Positions 2,747 to 10,554 of a DNA stretch of 22,964 bases are shown piece after piece (position 1 is the stretch's first letter; the number at the start of each line of letters is the position of its first letter). The position numbers and the translations under genes were made by a program. Source of the stretch: a virus; the IMG/VR virus record IMGVR_UViG_3300003806_000007, positions 1-22,964 of that record. The stretch is one strand, 5' to 3'. The notes under the pieces were generated by a model that ran no database searches, was not told where the DNA came from, and saw only the letters and a list, made by a program, of their open reading frames with translations.

Positions 2747-3243
2747 AAGCGTTAGCGTTGAGTTTCCACCTTCCTGAGCTGATCCCTCCTGATGGCCTGT
2801 TTTTGCTTCTCCAGAGCCTCCCTGAGCCTGTCTATTCCCTTTCCCTGTACCTAGAGCATGACAACAAGGAGCAGCCTTCTGCGGCCCTTTATTTTGACCG
2901 CCTCCTGATCTCCTGATCCTGTCTTGATGACAACCCCTCCGGGCTTTTCTGTAGCAGGTAAAAGACCCGGCGTTTTGCCCCTGTCTTGTCCTGACCTTGC
3001 CCAGCGCCTGAGCTGTCCGGTCTACCTGCCCTCCCTCCCTTTGATGAACTACCCATCAAGAGCAGGTGATTTGCGGCCTTTGCGCGATTTGTTCGCTGAC
3101 CTACCGGAAACCGAATCAGCTAAACCATTGACAACACTATACGAAAAAAACCGCTTGACTACAAGACGGACGTAGCGTCCTAGTATTCCAGAGGACGCAC
3201 CGTCCTAGGCTGTTTGACATCGTAAAACCTGAATACTCCTGAC
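2747..3243. other. Control region without convincing genes
   Basis: About 500 bp between the leftward terminase operon and the rightward small-gene block. Short open frames exist on both strands (2924-3175 plus, 2889-3056 minus), but neither has a ribosome binding site or recognisable composition. The minus strand of 2760-3050 is purine-rich with repeated AGGAG and ATCAGGAG. An imperfect inverted repeat pairs 2954-2970 with 3017-3029 across a 46 nt loop. TTGACA or TTGACT occurs at 3128, 3155 and 3214, but none has a good -10 at normal spacing. A GAATC site (the CcrM methylation motif GANTC) lies at 3113-3117. The paired palindromes at its right end are listed separately. Confidence 0.5.
3168..3205. 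promoter_or_regulatory. Twin operator-like palindromes GGACG-N3-CGTCC
   Basis: GGACGTAGCGTCC (3168-3180) and GGACGCACCGTCC (3193-3205) are perfect palindromes with a 3 nt centre, 25 bp apart and each followed by TAG. TAGTAT at 3181-3186 lies between them, and TTGACT at 3155-3160 lies 20 bp upstream of it. The first palindrome therefore sits in an over-long promoter spacer, a geometry known from MerR-type activation. This may be the regulated promoter for the rightward block. No MerR-like gene is in the window. Confidence 0.5.
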
Positions 3244-3316
3244 GACAGCGGGAATGGATCGGCTCCGGCCTTTCCCTTCTCTCGGTCGCCAGTGACCGAA
3301 AACAGGAGAAACCACC
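3244..3316 (+). repeat. Two-hairpin leader cassette, copy A
   Basis: First of four related leaders. It starts GACAGCGGGA, forms a stem GGGAATGG / CCTTTCCC with one mismatch, then CTCGGTC and GACCG (3283-3287 with 3294-3298) as a second stem. It ends in AAAACAGGAGAAAC, which supplies the ribosome binding site for the gene at 3317. Preceding TGAC resembles the stop-codon junction that opens copies C and D, as if a gene once lay upstream. Confidence 0.65.
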
Positions 3317-3604
3317 ATGAACGACAGCCACCTAAGAACAAACGCAGACGGCACCGTTTGCAGCTATATCGGCGAGGACGCTACCCGCCTATTTCAAGCC
3401 AAGGTAGTGAAGCAAGGCCTCAGAGCTTGCAAGCTCGGCATGAGGCTTTCACGCAATGCCACGCCGACCACGCTTTTCGCTTTGACGAAGCAGTTTACCG
3501 GAAAGAGCTACAAGCGCGGCCAATATGACCTAGCTATTGCTGACCTCGACATCTGGATAACAACCATGCTTCACGCCCTACCCATCGAAACGACAGGAGC
3601 TTAA
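3317..3604 (+). CDS. Small conserved-looking phage protein, unknown function
   Basis: A 95-residue soluble protein with a good ribosome binding site (AACAGGAGAAACCACC) from leader copy A. The central part is basic (LRACKLGMRLSRNATP, about 35-50), followed by FTGKSYKRGQYDLAIADLDIWI. It has no signal peptide, membrane segment or obvious catalytic motif. It opens a rightward block of small accessory proteins, the class of early or host-takeover genes that phages keep in repeated expression cassettes. I cannot assign a function. Confidence 0.7.
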   Translation: MNDSHLRTNADGTVCSYIGEDATRLFQAKVVKQGLRACKLGMRLSRNATPTTLFALTKQFTGKSYKRGQYDLAIADLDIWITTMLHALPIETTGA

Positions 3605-3607
3605 ACC

Positions 3608-3886
3608 ATGATCAAGACCTTCACCGTGACCGCCCCGAGCTACTGGGCCTCTTACTATATCAACGACGATGCCTCGGGCCTCGAGGACGATGAGATCAAG
3701 GCAGCGGATGCCTTTTTCGACTATCTCGCCAAAAACGTGCCGAACCTGAGCTGCGTTGATGCTGCTTCGGATGACTTCATTGACTACCATGACGCCTTTG
3801 ATTTTTACCCTTATGGTTCGGACTGCTCAACCTATACCTTCCTTGTCGCCGAGGCCGATATCACTCTCGAACAGGTTACCCAGTAG
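3608..3886 (+). CDS. Acidic small protein, unknown function
   Basis: A 92-residue strongly acidic protein starting 3 nt after the previous stop, so probably translationally coupled; ACAGGAG precedes it. Acidic clusters include DDASGLEDDEIKAADAFFDYL (about 20-40) and SDDFIDYHDAFDF (about 64-76), with many aromatic residues. This composition would suit a DNA mimic or a protein-binding inhibitor, but no family is recognised with certainty and the small size limits any claim. Unlike its neighbours it lacks its own hairpin leader and shares the one before 3317. Confidence 0.7.
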   Translation: MIKTFTVTAPSYWASYYINDDASGLEDDEIKAADAFFDYLAKNVPNLSCVDAASDDFIDYHDAFDFYPYGSDCSTYTFLVAEADITLEQVTQ

Positions 3887-3955
3887 CAACAGCTCGAACG
3901 CATCTCACAAGGTGCGTTCCCACGGTTGCTAATGACCGAAAACAGGAGAAAAACC
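3887..3955 (+). repeat. Two-hairpin leader cassette, copy B
   Basis: Starts GCAACAGC right after the previous stop. Stem 1 pairs GAACGCATCT (3896-3905) with AGGTGCGTTC (3910-3919) over a CACA loop, ten pairs including one G-U. Stem 2 pairs CGGTT (3923-3927) with GACCG (3934-3938). It ends AAAACAGGAGAAAAACC before the ATG at 3956. Stem 1 differs from copies C and D at paired positions while staying paired, which suggests RNA structure is conserved. Confidence 0.75.
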
Positions 3956-4423
3956 ATGCAAGCCTACATTGAGCTTCCACACGGAACCATCATCACCACA
4001 ACGAACCCGCAGGTTTACAGCGGCCCCTTCCTATCAGGTAAGCGCCTTAGCAAGACTGAAGGCAAAAAGCGCCTAGAGCAGCAAGCCCGAGACAACTTGC
4101 TCGGACTAATCAGCCCGAAGGATACGGTCTACACCGTTCTAAGGTCGGTTTCAGCTTCTGGTATGAGCCGAGCCATTGATTTTTACATCATTAAACAGGA
4201 TCACCCCCTTTGGATCACCGGACTGGTTGCCAGTTTGCTAGGACTGAAAAAGGCCAAGGGCGAAGGCCTGACGGTCACGGGTTGCGGCATGGATATGGGC
4301 TTCGCCACGGTCTACAGCCTCGGCATGGCCCTTTGGCCCAACGGCACGCCGGAAGCCCACGGCACCCGCAACGGACAGCCCGACCATGACGGAGGCTACG
4401 CTTTGAAACAGGCTTGGCTTTAG
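3956..4423 (+). CDS. Conserved phage protein with SASGMSR and GCGMDMGF motifs
   Basis: A 155-residue protein. An earlier in-frame ATG at 3926 lies inside the leader hairpin, so the ATG after AACAGGAGAAAAACC is preferred. It contains TVYTVLRSVSASGMSRAID (about 58-76), TGCGMDMGFATVYSLGMALWP (about 105-125) and a C-terminal DGGYALKQAWL. I recognise this combination from hypothetical proteins scattered through phages of several bacterial phyla, but no function is known to me. The Cys and Met-rich GCGMDMG segment and the closing GGYALK motif are the conserved anchors. It is carried in the second leader cassette. Confidence 0.8.
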   Translation: MQAYIELPHGTIITTTNPQVYSGPFLSGKRLSKTEGKKRLEQQARDNLLGLISPKDTVYTVLRSVSASGMSRAIDFYIIKQDHPLWITGLVASLLGLKKAKGEGLTVTGCGMDMGFATVYSLGMALWPNGTPEAHGTRNGQPDHDGGYALKQAWL

Positions 4424-4500
4424 TGACAACAGCGGGAGCGCATCCCTCGGGGTGCGTTCTCTCGGTTGCCATGTCGGAACCGGAAACAGGAGAAACAACA
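4424..4500 (+). repeat. Two-hairpin leader cassette, copy C
   Basis: Begins with GACAACAGC at the end of the preceding gene (stop TAG, then TGACAACAG). Stem 1 pairs GGGAGCGCATCC (4434-4445) with GGGTGCGTTCTC (4450-4461) over a CTCG loop, twelve pairs allowing G-U. Stem 2 pairs CGGTT (4463-4467) with AACCG (4478-4482). It ends GGAAACAGGAGAAACAACA before the ATG at 4501. Confidence 0.78.
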
Positions 4501-4866
4501 ATGCAAATCGAATTGACAATCGACGCCCCTCGCACGTTCAAGGCCATCCCTCGTCCCCAGTGGTCGCCTTGGGGTAAGCCCGACCATGCCGAACAGGTGT
4601 TCGATGGCGTGTGGTCTATCTCGACGCCTCGGCACGGTGGCTTTTACGTCTCAGCCGAGCGCCGCAAGGCGATGCCGGAAGCGTGGCTTGTTGCGAGCTT
4701 CCATCGGCAAGGCCTCGACGGGTGGTTTGAGGAGGATTGTGACTGGTGCATGATCCCCCTCGCCTTTCCTGAAGAATGGCGCAAATGGCGGGGAGATGCC
4801 GCCGAACGCGAGATTGCGGGAGCGCAAAGCACGTTCGACCACTGGATAGCAAGCAAGCTCGTTTGA
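4501..4866 (+). CDS. Small protein, possibly DUF7007-like
   Basis: A 121-residue protein. The longer open frame begins at 4414 inside the previous gene, but the ATG at 4501 follows the cassette ribosome binding site and gives a sensible start. Visible motifs are PWGKPDHAEQVFDGVWSIST (about 22-41), HGGFYVSAERR (about 44-54) and GWFEEDCDWCMIPLAFPE (about 78-95). This HGG plus EEDCDW pattern resembles proteins annotated as DUF7007 in phages and plasmids, though I cannot confirm it. The function is unknown. The next leader starts in its stop codon (TGACAACAG). Confidence 0.75.
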   Translation: MQIELTIDAPRTFKAIPRPQWSPWGKPDHAEQVFDGVWSISTPRHGGFYVSAERRKAMPEAWLVASFHRQGLDGWFEEDCDWCMIPLAFPEEWRKWRGDAAEREIAGAQSTFDHWIASKLV

Positions 4867-4940
4867 CAACAGTCCAGACGCATCCTTCGGGGTGCGTCTC
4901 AGCGGTTGCCATAGTGGAACCGAAAACAGGAGAAAAACTT
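4864..4940 (+). repeat. Two-hairpin leader cassette, copy D
   Basis: Starts at the TGA stop of the preceding gene (TGACAACAG). Stem 1 pairs AGACGCATCC (4876-4885) with GGGTGCGTCT (4890-4899) around TTCG, ten pairs closed by the very stable C(UUCG)G tetraloop. Stem 2 pairs CGGTT (4903-4907) with AACCG (4918-4922). It ends AAAACAGGAGAAAAACTT before the ATG at 4941. There is no T-tract after stem 1, so it does not look like a simple terminator. Confidence 0.8.
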
Positions 4941-5228
4941 ATGATAACAGTAGCGATTTACATCGTTGATCGGGCCTATGGTGGCTCGGAGGAAGGCGGA
5001 TGGTGGTACGATTGCGGAGAGCCATCGGACGAGCAATGCAGTTATACGCGAGGCTTCGAAACCGAGGCCGAAGCCCTAAACTATTCTGCCGAGCTTTTGC
5101 CTATATGTCATGAGCTAAATGACGGAAGGCCGGACATCGGCCATTCGAACTCGGTCGGTCGCTATCTGCCGATCATTTCAGACGGAAACCCCAAGCCGTT
5201 CCCGAGCGAGCGGCCCTATTATTCTTGA
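4941..5228 (+). CDS. Small protein with GGxEEGGWWYDCGEP motif
   Basis: A 95-residue protein started by the fourth leader cassette; the longer open frame from 4776 would run through that leader and is rejected. The N-terminal stretch IYIVDRAYGGSEEGGWWYDCGEPS (about 6-29) is the distinctive part and resembles small hypothetical phage proteins I have seen, and the C-terminus ends PFPSERPYYS. No catalytic motif, signal or membrane segment is visible. It is the last gene of the cassette series; the following genes have ordinary ribosome binding sites. Confidence 0.72.
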   Translation: MITVAIYIVDRAYGGSEEGGWWYDCGEPSDEQCSYTRGFETEAEALNYSAELLPICHELNDGRPDIGHSNSVGRYLPIISDGNPKPFPSERPYYS

Positions 5229-5240
5229 GGAGGACAACCC

Positions 5241-5735
5241 ATGCCAAACTGGTGCAGCCACACGGCCACGATAAGCCACAACGATCCTTCAAAGATCGCT
5301 GAGCTTATCCAGACATTCTCGGACGGGAACACGTTCGAGCATTTCATCCCATTGCCCAACGGTGATTGGGATTATGATTTTTGCGTCGAGCATTGGGGGA
5401 CAAAATGGGACATCCGCGAGCCTCAATTTATTCTAGACGGCCCAACGATGGTTGACGTTGCCTTTGCTACCGCATGGGCGCCCCCAATCCCAGTATTCGA
5501 GCATATGAAGCAGCTCGGCTACACGGTCAAGGCGGACTATTGGGATGAAGGCGGGTTTTTTGTCGGCATTTGGAACGATGGCGAAAGCCGAGTATTTAGC
5601 CCAGACAATGCCCCCGAAGACATGGCCCACCTTGTCGCTCACTTTAATTACCCAGAGGACGACGAGCCAAGCGATCTCGAGGCCGAGGTCGAGGCCGAAA
5701 GCGCAACCCACGAAGCAGCAACCAACGCACAATAG
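5241..5735 (+). CDS. Api92/YubB-like ferredoxin-fold protein (DUF1281-like)
   Basis: A 164-residue protein beginning MPNWCSHTATIS, with FEHFIPLPNGDWDYDFCVEHWGTKWDI (about 32-58). These are hallmarks of the Api92/YubB group of phage and plasmid proteins (DUF1281), whose N-terminal domain has a ferredoxin-like fold. The WGTKWD motif is intact. The C-terminal 30 residues are a low-complexity acidic and alanine-rich tail (EAEVEAESATHEAATNAQ). A GGAGGAC ribosome binding site precedes the ATG. The molecular role of the family is not established; it is often found among early or antirestriction-type accessory genes. Confidence 0.85.
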   Translation: MPNWCSHTATISHNDPSKIAELIQTFSDGNTFEHFIPLPNGDWDYDFCVEHWGTKWDIREPQFILDGPTMVDVAFATAWAPPIPVFEHMKQLGYTVKADYWDEGGFFVGIWNDGESRVFSPDNAPEDMAHLVAHFNYPEDDEPSDLEAEVEAESATHEAATNAQ

Positions 5736-5745
5736 GAGGCCTATC

Positions 5746-5991
5746 ATGGGCGCACCCGTGACGCTTGCTTTTTTTAAGAACGACAATTTCAGCTATCAAG
5801 ACGCAAAAAAGAACGGCGCTGTCTATTCCTTTCAGTTGGATTACGGCGAGGCCCACAAAGGCCTTGCCCAGACCGCTGTTTGGGATGCTCTGGAGATCAT
5901 TAACGCCGTAAAAACCTGCTACGGCATAAAAGATGAACCGCTGTCTTTTGTCCTATTGGACGATAAACACAACATAATCGACGCGATGTGA
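5746..5991 (+). CDS. Small unknown protein
   Basis: An 81-residue protein with a strong ribosome binding site (TAGGAGG, 7 nt before the ATG) overlapping the end of the Api92-like gene region. A longer frame from 5545 would lie inside that gene and is rejected. It begins MGAPVTLAFFKND and ends LLDDKHNIIDAM, with alternating hydrophobic stretches suggesting a compact alpha/beta domain. I recognise no family. Its place between two other small accessory genes is the only functional hint. Confidence 0.65.
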   Translation: MGAPVTLAFFKNDNFSYQDAKKNGAVYSFQLDYGEAHKGLAQTAVWDALEIINAVKTCYGIKDEPLSFVLLDDKHNIIDAM

Positions 5992-6001
5992 AAGGGAAAC
6001 C

Positions 6002-6397
6002 ATGACAAAAGCAATTCCAATAAATGCAGGGTATGTGGCTTTTAACGGCCACGTTTTTACCGAAGCCGAGGCCAACGCCTACAATCAGGCCTGTCGGGAT
6101 GCCGAGCGCAGCCCGTCTGACTTTAACTTAGACCAACGTCATCGGGTTTTTGCTTCGATTATCCAGTCAAGGCAGAAAGCCGAGCTTGATCGAGATGAGC
6201 GCTATTTGGTGCAAATCTGGCAAGATGGCGAGCTTCTCGACTTTATCCGAACGGATGACGACGATCTGGCTTGGCAGACCTATTCCGAGTTTTGCAATGA
6301 TTTGCAATTAACGGGAAACAAGGCCTACGTCGAGATTTGGGATATAGATCGCTTACTTGGTGATCGGACGGTTTACAATGACACCGAAGCAGCTTGA
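6002..6397 (+). CDS. Small unknown protein, acidic and aromatic
   Basis: A 131-residue protein with AAAGGGAAACC before its ATG. The first half has FNGHVFTEAEANAYNQACRDAE (about 14-35); the second half has RYLVQIWQDGELLDFIRTDDDDLAWQTYSEF (about 76-106), resembling a beta-rich segment followed by an acidic helix. No family or catalytic motif is recognised. Its 3' end overlaps the following helix-turn-helix gene by 20 nt, so the two are probably co-translated. Confidence 0.7.
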   Translation: MTKAIPINAGYVAFNGHVFTEAEANAYNQACRDAERSPSDFNLDQRHRVFASIIQSRQKAELDRDERYLVQIWQDGELLDFIRTDDDDLAWQTYSEFCNDLQLTGNKAYVEIWDIDRLLGDRTVYNDTEAA

Positions 6398-6530
6398 CAC
6401 GATCCTGAAGGCCAACGGGGAAACCCGAACGGCCTTTGCCCTACGGATCGGGGTGACGCCCAGAACAGTCCGACGATGGCTTAACGGTCAACACCCGATC
6501 CCGCAATGGCTCGAGAACATACTGAAATAA
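6378..6530 (+). CDS. Small 50-residue helix-turn-helix protein
   Basis: A short frame of 50 residues starting MTPKQLDTILKANGE. Its core, AFALRIGVTPRTVRRWLNG (about 19-37), is a typical helix-turn-helix: a helix, the GVT turn, then a recognition helix with TVRRWLNG. It is followed by HPIPQWLENILK. It resembles minimal XRE/Cro-like proteins found in phages. Its start lies inside the previous gene (20 nt overlap) and it is directly followed by the terminator at 6535, so it closes the rightward operon. Such a small DNA-binding protein could regulate the palindromes at 3168-3205 or 2269-2304, but that link is a guess. Confidence 0.75.
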   Translation: MTPKQLDTILKANGETRTAFALRIGVTPRTVRRWLNGQHPIPQWLENILK

Positions 6531-6534
6531 AATT

Positions 6535-6568
6535 GGCCTCGGCAGTGTTTTTGCTGCCGAGGCCTTTT
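6535..6568 (+). terminator. Bidirectional intrinsic terminator
   Basis: GGCCTCGGCAG (6535-6545) and CTGCCGAGGCC (6554-6564) form a perfect 11 bp stem with an 8 nt loop, followed by TTTT. On the minus strand the stem is followed by AATTTTATT, so it can also end the leftward primase operon that finishes at 6600. It sits exactly between converging operons. Confidence 0.9.
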
Positions 6569-7553: not shown

Positions 7554-9052
7554 TTCCAATTACCATTCGCGGCTTGCTCGGCCTTGCGCTTCCTGATCCA
7601 CTGATTCTTAACCCAGTTCGTGGTCTTCTTGGATGGCATCGCAGGTATCCGAATGAACGTCTTGTCGGGAAACTCGTGGTACTTGTCCTTATATTGGTGA
7701 TAGGCCCACCCTTGCTTGTATTTGCGCTCCTCGCAGATGCCGAGCAGCTCCCGATAGAACAGCTCCCTTTCCTCGAACGGCGTCATCACTTCACTGTAAA
7801 CCTTGTTGCCGCCCCTTCCTGATACTTCGTGCAGCTCGCCATCGGCGTAAAACACATTGGCCCGTGGCATGGTTTCGAACCCACAGGCAGGGCAAACCCG
7901 TATTCTGGCAGGTTTCAGGTAGGTGCATTTGGGGCAGACCTTCGGCAGCGGCTCTTGTTTCTCCCGTTTGTCACCGCCTCCCATCTTCTTTTTACCGTCA
8001 TCCAGATGGCCGTGGTGTATGTCGGTGACAAAACCGAGACGAGCCGTGGTGTCCGAATGATCGAGGATCAGGCAGTCTGACTTGCCCTTGAACATACGCA
8101 AGCCTCGACCGACGATCTGGCAGTACAGCATCTCGCTCTTAGTCGGTCTGGCTAGTATCAGACATGATACGAACGGCAGATCGACGCCCGTGGTCATCAC
8201 GCCGACATTGCAAATGACTTTGTAATCGCCATTGCGGAATTGTTTTGCGAGATCATCGCGCTCGTCGAGTGGAGTTTCCCCGTCCACATAAGCGGAAGGT
8301 ATTCCCGCCTTGTTGAAACTATCGCAGATATTGGCGGCGTGGGCGCGGTTGACGGCGAAGCAGATCGTCGGCCTGTCTTCCCCGAGCTTGATCCAAGTAT
8401 CAACAATATCAGCGACCAAAGCGGCCCTGTTCATGGCACTGGCTAGACCCTGTATCTCGTAATCTCCGGCAATAGTCTTGATGCCTTCGAGATCGGGCTT
8501 GGATGGGGCATACACCCGAAACTTGCTTAGAAACTCACTGTCGATGAGCTGTTGGGTCGTGGTCCCGATTATTAACTCGTCGTAGAGCTTGCCTAATCCT
8601 TTAGTCCAAGGAGTGGCCGACAAGCCAATGATGGGAACATTCTTCCACTCTGGGTCGTCGAACCAGCGCTTGTATATATCAAATACAACGTGAGCCTCGT
8701 CGATCATCACCAGATCGGCAGGTGGTATCTTGCGTCGCATCAAGGTTTGGATCGAGCAGATTTGCACCTTCGCGGACGCATCGGTCAGCTCGTGCATACC
8801 CTGCATGACGCCGATATCGTGAATCCCGTCCCGCTTGAAGCTCTCAATGGTCTGGGTAATTAGACTGAGAGCGGGGACCGTAAAGATCACCCGCTTGTCG
8901 TTGCCAAGGGCAGACCTGATGATAGAAGCGGCGGTGGCAGTCTTACCCGCACCCGTCGGCATCTGAAGCATCAAGCGCTTGTTGCCCTTGGCAATAGAGT
9001 TTCGAAGGCTGGCAATAGCAGCCTCCTGATAGTCCCGTAGTTCGTGTTGCAT
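7550..9052 (-). CDS. SF2 DEAD/DEAH-box helicase with C-terminal zinc finger
   Basis: This 500-residue protein unwinds or remodels DNA in replication or recombination. Motifs in order: RDYQEAAI (Q-like region, about 6-13), Walker A MPTGAGKT (31-38), DEAH (118-121), SAT (145-147), TTGVDLP (about 287-293) and QIVGRGLR (312-319). A C-terminal zinc finger follows with Cys373-x2-Cys376 and Cys387-x2-Cys390. This layout matches the RecQ/UvrB/RAD25-like helicases common in phages that lack their own replicative ring helicase. Its start overlaps the upstream stop (TAATG) and its stop overlaps the primase start, so the two are co-translated. Confidence 0.93.
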   Translation of the reverse strand: MQHELRDYQEAAIASLRNSIAKGNKRLMLQMPTGAGKTATAASIIRSALGNDKRVIFTVPALSLITQTIESFKRDGIHDIGVMQGMHELTDASAKVQICSIQTLMRRKIPPADLVMIDEAHVVFDIYKRWFDDPEWKNVPIIGLSATPWTKGLGKLYDELIIGTTTQQLIDSEFLSKFRVYAPSKPDLEGIKTIAGDYEIQGLASAMNRAALVADIVDTWIKLGEDRPTICFAVNRAHAANICDSFNKAGIPSAYVDGETPLDERDDLAKQFRNGDYKVICNVGVMTTGVDLPFVSCLILARPTKSEMLYCQIVGRGLRMFKGKSDCLILDHSDTTARLGFVTDIHHGHLDDGKKKMGGGDKREKQEPLPKVCPKCTYLKPARIRVCPACGFETMPRANVFYADGELHEVSGRGGNKVYSEVMTPFEERELFYRELLGICEERKYKQGWAYHQYKDKYHEFPDKTFIRIPAMPSKKTTNWVKNQWIRKRKAEQAANGNWK

Positions 9053-10440: not shown

Positions 10441-10554
10441 CAAGCTAATATTAAATTTATGGTCTGTCAAGCAGCGGGTGGCCTTCCTGACGCTGCTCTG
10501 CTTCGGTCGGCCCAAGGCTGGGAAGCAGCAGAAATCAGCCGCCCCGCTATCCCT

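Follow-up and report, generated by a model that had tools for sequence, protein, structure and literature searches.

The closest working parallel to the repeated leaders described here is given by the intercistronic RNase III signals of bacteriophage T7 (R0.3, R0.5, R1, R1.1, R1.3, and R4.7), which, like them, occur within a single transcript in the gaps separating small genes, directly upstream of a Shine-Dalgarno (SD) motif, and are composed of a lower stem, an internal loop of 3–6 nt and an upper stem of about 10 bp. Integron attC sites, which the leaders resemble as imperfect palindromes at gene boundaries in a cassette-like array, carry the boxes RYYYAAC (R'') and GTTRRRY (R'). The internal loop of the T7 R1.1 signal is 4/5 (PMC6121014), and cleavage takes place at nucleotide 5887 (PMC8708148). 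When the lower stem of R1.1 was paired by hand, this position fell on the T7 sequence two bases before the 3' strand of that stem. An RNase III from Alphaproteobacteria reportedly requires dsRNA of greater length than its E. coli counterpart does (PMC6121014). Finally, the SAS and ESAS elements of the cluster K mycobacteriophages are repeated in each genome upstream of unrelated small genes, contain a well-kept SD motif and inverted repeats with a variable spacer, and differ between phage groups (PMC3203893). The changes in their repeats do not support RNA pairing, and DNA-binding sites were favored by the authors of that study (PMC3203893).

Genome setting and anatomy of the leaders

The window, that is, the whole stretch of DNA analyzed here (22,964 nt), covers most of the IMG/VR virus record IMGVR_UViG_3300003806_000007, which belongs to a freshwater phage and comprises 32,245 bases. 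The terminase genes are on the minus strand of the window, and the terminase large subunit shares 51% identity with those of the Caulobacter phages RW, RLK, and KcrB, and through this one protein a link with Caulobacter is possible. A cluster of small genes, the function of most of which is unknown, extends on the plus strand from 3317 to 6530, and within it a leader of 68–72 nt is located ahead of p1, p3, p4, and p5 (Table 1). Genes p2, p6, p7, and p8 of the same cluster have no leader, and no further copies were found in the 32,245-base record outside these four.

Upstream of the cluster, positions 3155-3215 of the window contain TTGACT, a spacer of about 21 nt and TAGTAT, with GGACG/CGTCC palindromes within and after the spacer. 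The same TTGACT/TAGTAT arrangement was found ahead of the first gene in two related contigs, L035 and L085, and may be a regulated operon promoter with long, MerR-like spacing. At the operon end (6535-6564) there is a strong hairpin, GGCCTCGGCAG/CTGCCGAGGCC, which scores as a minus-strand terminator. A promoter at the TTGACA of leader D was also considered and rejected, a −10 sequence in register being absent.

All four leaders of the window have the 3' end CCG(A/G)AAACAGGAGAAA, followed by ATG, and leaders C and D are 78% identical. Folding z-scores were −4.7 for B, −3.6 for D, −2.6 for C and merely −1.5 for A. A covariance model trained on 11 copies, the four window leaders among them, scored these four at E values from 2e-12 to 1e-18.

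Table 1. Leaders, their pairing strands and the neighboring genes (window coordinates).
Feature	Position	Strand	Details
Leader A	3240..3311	+	72 nt, 5' UTR of p1
Leader A parts	a 3240-3248; P2 ~3250-3281; b ~3283-3290; c ~3294-3299; SD 3302-3311		P2 imperfect
Gene p1	3317..3604	+	95 aa; L035 orthologue also behind its own leader
Gene p2	3608..3886	+	DUF6926; without leader; leader B begins with its stop codon, TAG 3884-3886
Leader B	3884..3951	+	68 nt, ahead of p3
Leader B, P1 and P2	P1 3884-3890/3925-3931; A.G 3891/3924; P2 3896-3905/3910-3919		
Leader B, P3 and SD	P3 3923-3927/3934-3938; SD 3942-3951		
Gene p3	3956..4423	+	phrog_12365 (function unknown)
Leader C	4424..4495	+	72 nt, ahead of p4; preceded by TAG 4421-4423
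Leader C parts	P1 4427-4430/4465-4468; P2 4436-4445/4450-4459; P3 4463-4467/4478-4482; SD 4486-4495		
Gene p4	4501..4866	+	DUF7007, E 5e-24
Leader D	4864..4935	+	72 nt, ahead of p5; TGA 4864-4866 is the p4 stop
Leader D, P1 and P2	P1 4867-4870/4905-4908; P2 4876-4885/4890-4899		A.G mismatch; C(UUCG)G loop in P2
Leader D, P3 and SD	P3 4903-4907/4918-4922; SD 4926-4935		P3 plus CCA/TGG
Gene p5	4941..5228	+	95 aa, phrog_7302-like

The 5' strand of the leader (a, G-R-C-R-A-C) pairs with strand b, the start of the second hairpin, forming the stem P1 that encloses the hairpin P2. A third strand, c, located directly upstream of the SD, pairs with the same b strand (P3) and, because both stems use b, P1 and P3 are mutually exclusive. 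A simple pseudoknot was rejected, since P1 and P3 occupy the same b bases in register. The sequence-only reading of this DNA had reported four copies at this place, a first stem that keeps pairing in B, C, and D despite changed letters, and a C(UUCG)G tetraloop in D, and all of these were recovered. However, it had described a leader of two hairpins, and these are not independent of each other: strand a base-pairs with the 5' arm of the second one, which is thus left with a competing partner. Neither the a:b pairing, nor the conserved A.G mismatch, nor the wide recurrence with different letters formed part of that reading.

Strand a is TGACGAC in A, TAGCAAC in B and TGACAAC in C and D. Its partners in b, the 5' arm of the second hairpin, are GTCG in A, GTTGCTA in B and GTTG in C and D, and strand c reads GACCG or AACCG. 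Leader A has a P1 of just 4 bp (CGAC/GTCG), and in it the change of b from CGGTT to CGGTC is matched both by a (CAAC to CGAC) and by c (AACCG to GACCG). In the common plan, P1 is followed by the conserved A.G mismatch, a single base pair, the 3x3 loop and then P2 (about 10 bp), c, the SD and ATG, the form from P1 to P2 amounting to about 22 layers of imperfect helix. Strands a and c are near-repeats in register; opposite the invariant G, nearly all leaders have A in strand a and C in strand c, strand a being a spoiled partner of b and strand c a perfect one. According to the computed energies, the P1 and P3 states are at most about 4.5 kcal/mol apart, and the P3 form is the more stable in A, C, and D. 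The accessibility of the SD was similar with or without strand a and, as the SD is largely open whichever state is formed, direct masking of it is unlikely.

Leader A apart, most leaders have the start of strand a no more than about 4 nt from the codon that ends an open frame upstream. The location in or next to the previous stop codon, proposed for all the leaders by the sequence-only reading, is correct for B, C, and D but not for A, which has no translated ORF upstream: the frame closed by TGA 3240-3242 lacks a start codon (ATG, GTG or TTG).

Recurrence in relatives and conservation of pairing

The same leader plan, often with unrelated letters, was found in at least 10 other phage contigs, all of them metagenomic and several being fragments. 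Two of the records, L003 and L012, are almost identical, and L022 is a close one. L035/L039 contain five leaders with a different gene order, and L085 and L086 one window-type leader apiece plus variants. Four leaders with other letters (CATTGC ... GGCAATG TTGCC) are present in L036, which was reached via its DUF7007 gene; this gene, p4 in the window, has a leader upstream in L035, L036, L194, and L195 as well. Relatives of p3 led to L124 (two leaders), L132 (two plus one T.G variant), L113, and L105, and a pattern scan yielded L194/L199 (six), L195 (four), and L196. Because L196 holds both GACAAC-type and CATTGC-type leaders, the two letter sets are linked; moreover, a covariance model made only from window-type leaders also detects one leader in each of the records L036 (E = 2e-4) and L194 (E = 7e-6). 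Weak matches in L001 and L017 were excluded.

Rfam 15 gave no match to the leader at the gathering score or at E values up to 5. BLAST comparison of the region gave no match with plasmids and, with phages, short coding matches only. The model R1 found no match in 385 genomes of one bacterial class, a class without positive control, nor in the partial records of Caulobacter RW and CcrRogue, Brevundimonas Strzyga, Sphingobium Lacusarx, and Achromobacter AchV4. The 32 scattered single matches of a pattern scan over genome contigs, one of them in L044 before a lipoprotein gene, were chance-like and were discarded.

The leaders were aligned by hand, with the A.G mismatch as anchor. P1 and the next pair were paired in 93.3% across 26 distinct leaders. 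For these 26, the covariation score of P1 was 0.955 vs. 0.266 after shuffling (none of 500 shuffles reached it) and 0.169 at best in slid registers, the P1 score being biased upward because several of the leaders had been found by searches requiring P1 pairing or letters. Considering alone the 11 window-type copies, which were located mainly via the SD motif, the score for P1 plus P2 was 0.467 vs. 0.179, and in window-type leaders seven of the eight outer P2 pairs are altered on both sides. P1 is 4–7 bp long and its third pair is broken in 11 of the 26 leaders. An open search for symmetric internal loops ahead of ORFs, over all the loci collected, returned the A.G mismatch 16 times and any other at most twice. 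P3 was more stable than shuffles of the spacer in every leader tested (p from 0.002 to 0.084; combined p = 6e-10, or 2e-5 with one leader per family), and its start column, two bases 5' of b, was identical in 26 of 28 leaders, a column reached by 19% of the shuffles. The proposal of a repeated RNA control or stability element, made from the sequence alone, is supported by the strong covariation, the copies in relatives and the lack of any terminator-like site at the leaders (plus strand, 3240-4940); a lack of covariation or of extra copies in relatives, which the same proposal had named as evidence against itself, did not occur.

Other leader-like arrangements were observed in these contigs. 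The p3 leader of L085 (about 3910-4000) has a P1 of CAATCTA/TAGATTG and a P3 of TTGCCA/TGGCAA, with C.A replacing the A.G mismatch. On the plus strand of L130 (420-4103) there are three copies of another kind of leader, different in shape (GTCGAGCC..GGCTCGCC plus an outer stem), which lies ahead of small genes and ends in ACGAGGAGC(A/G)AAGCC; some matches in L130, L146, and L101 looked repeated and were set aside for their different shape. The minus strand of L001 (about 8685-8800) has an AT-rich leader that starts from a stop codon; it carries the arms AAAGATTAAC/GTTAATCTTT and the same ribosome site, ACCGAAAACAGGAGAAA, its third strand could be ATTAAC, and it may be a distant case or chance.

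Processing, strand exchange and other possible roles

By analogy with T7, we tentatively prefer to read the leader as an element for RNase III-type processing and for stability, in which strand b, once freed, would refold as a 5'-terminal hairpin; this reading seems to us quite possible, if short of probable. The P1-loop-P2 form, in a polycistronic phage mRNA, would be an RNase III-type processing signal comparable to those of the T7 early genes. As in T7 R1.1, the cut would fall in the 3' strand of the internal loop, two bases ahead of b, and P2 would then be a 3'-end hairpin shielding the upstream message. Strand b, free for c, would form a flush 5'-terminal hairpin on the downstream message, followed by an open ribosome site, and the outcome would be a trimmed, protected mRNA of its own for each accessory gene from one promoter. 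As the cut placed by analogy would fall exactly at the P3 start, the downstream message would begin with a flush hairpin; this coincidence of columns and the location of leader A in a 5' UTR favor processing. Leader A, without a translated upstream gene, is comparable in this to the T7 site that precedes gene 0.3.

The leaders share with T7-type signals an irregular two-stem hairpin around an internal loop, of about 20 or more layers, and an intercistronic location upstream of a ribosome site; the lower stem of R0.5 is at a stop codon, as in the leaders. The same stop/start-anchored geometric search as for the leaders, run over T7, returned four places, the Tphi terminator and R0.5, R1.3, and R4.7, the latter three being RNase III sites of the T7 map of Dunn and Studier. 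In contrast to the T7 signals, the leaders have a fixed A.G mismatch and unrelated letters, and their cleavage is only predicted. A further difference is strand c, which in almost every copy makes a competing 5' hairpin starting at one fixed column; no P3 was seen at the T7 sites other than R1.1. Against processing, P1 is short, an alphaproteobacterial RNase III is reported as needing longer dsRNA, and leaders A, C, and D are computed to favor the P3 form, not itself a substrate of this kind. Also, a mismatch solely in a and a perfect partner in c suit a strand-exchange switch.

Possible, though uncertain, is a phage class of intercistronic RNA switches, repeated before several genes, in which b swaps between the mismatched a, at the upstream stop, and the matched c, at the ribosome site, so that what happens to each following gene depends on translation or cleavage of the one before it, the letters being rewritten between phages and the three-way pairing and the A.G mismatch being kept. 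In its translation-coupled version, which we find rather doubtful, the state of the ribosome at the upstream gene would set initiation or loading on the next one: a ribosome finishing the upstream gene would cover a and b would pair with c, while without a ribosome b would stay in P1 and the stretch before the SD would be single-stranded. The small energy difference between both states, the preference of A, C, and D for P3 and the mismatch base carried by a, with the matching C in c, opposite the invariant G are consistent with it. So is the proximity of a to the upstream stop in most leaders other than A, but any element would adjoin a stop codon in so compact an operon; in addition, all three strands are kept in leader A, which no translated ORF precedes, and the SD is nearly equally accessible in both states. 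Processing and strand exchange may both operate.

If processing, protection or coupling is indeed the role of the leader, phages unrelated to T7 would fit their accessory-gene arrays with a standard RNA part, conserved by its shape and not by its letters. The fixed three-strand design predicts a cut site, a 5' hairpin and an effect of the upstream stop. Constructs that express several genes could use the leader as a modular part, and it would be a marker of phage early operons missed by ordinary sequence searches.

It is unlikely that the leader is the binding site of a phage or host protein, such as a coordinating translational repressor, an activator or an anti-decay protein, that recognizes P1 with its A.G mismatch and the internal loop. 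The mismatch and the 5x5 geometry are constant while the P2 letters vary, and several copies per genome would permit coordinate control, but the P1 letters change completely between phages, so a single conserved binder would have to read shape only, and no gene for such a binder was identified.

That the leader acts in DNA, as a recombination site or cassette boundary by which small genes are moved, is very improbable. The cassette unit suggested by the sequence-only reading retains weak support from the recurrence of leader and gene in a different order among relatives and from the leaders of p1 and p3, which are closest to those of their orthologues (cores compared, P2 left out); the p4 leader is not, and leader presence varies for the same gene, as the L036 relative of p5 has none and p6 has one in one phage and lacks it in another. 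The compensatory changes are of RNA type, the strand sense is fixed before the SD, and no integrase was noted nearby. Unlike attC sites, the leaders show sense-strand RNA covariation, and identity with attC was rejected because b lacks the GTTRRRY box, reading, by inspection, GTTGCCA or GTTGCTA. Like SAS and ESAS, the leaders are repeated in each genome ahead of unrelated small genes and have an SD motif; unlike in these elements, pairing is strongly kept through compensatory change. The 13-bp SAS consensus GGGATAGGAGCCC (PMC3203893), allowing up to two deviations, does not fit the leader motif CCGRAAACAGGAGAAA, nor do the 17-bp inverted repeats of ESAS agree with the leaders, their changes being non-pairing and those of the leaders strongly compensatory. 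Intrinsic terminators or attenuators are hardly credible: P2 is a stable GC-rich hairpin, but the U-run is absent and nothing terminator-like was detected at any leader.

Two other RNA or junction features were observed on the minus strand of the window. Positions 10472-10549 match the CyVA-1 RNA (RF02965) with 47.3 bits, the gathering score being 41.4. Between 12861 and 14925, nine start regions are nearly identical (coding strand, TGAAGGAGGGTGAGTGATG); in them, overlapping stop and start codons link an array of small genes, several of which have IVERLR/EIERLR motifs, and they may represent another type of repeated gene junction.
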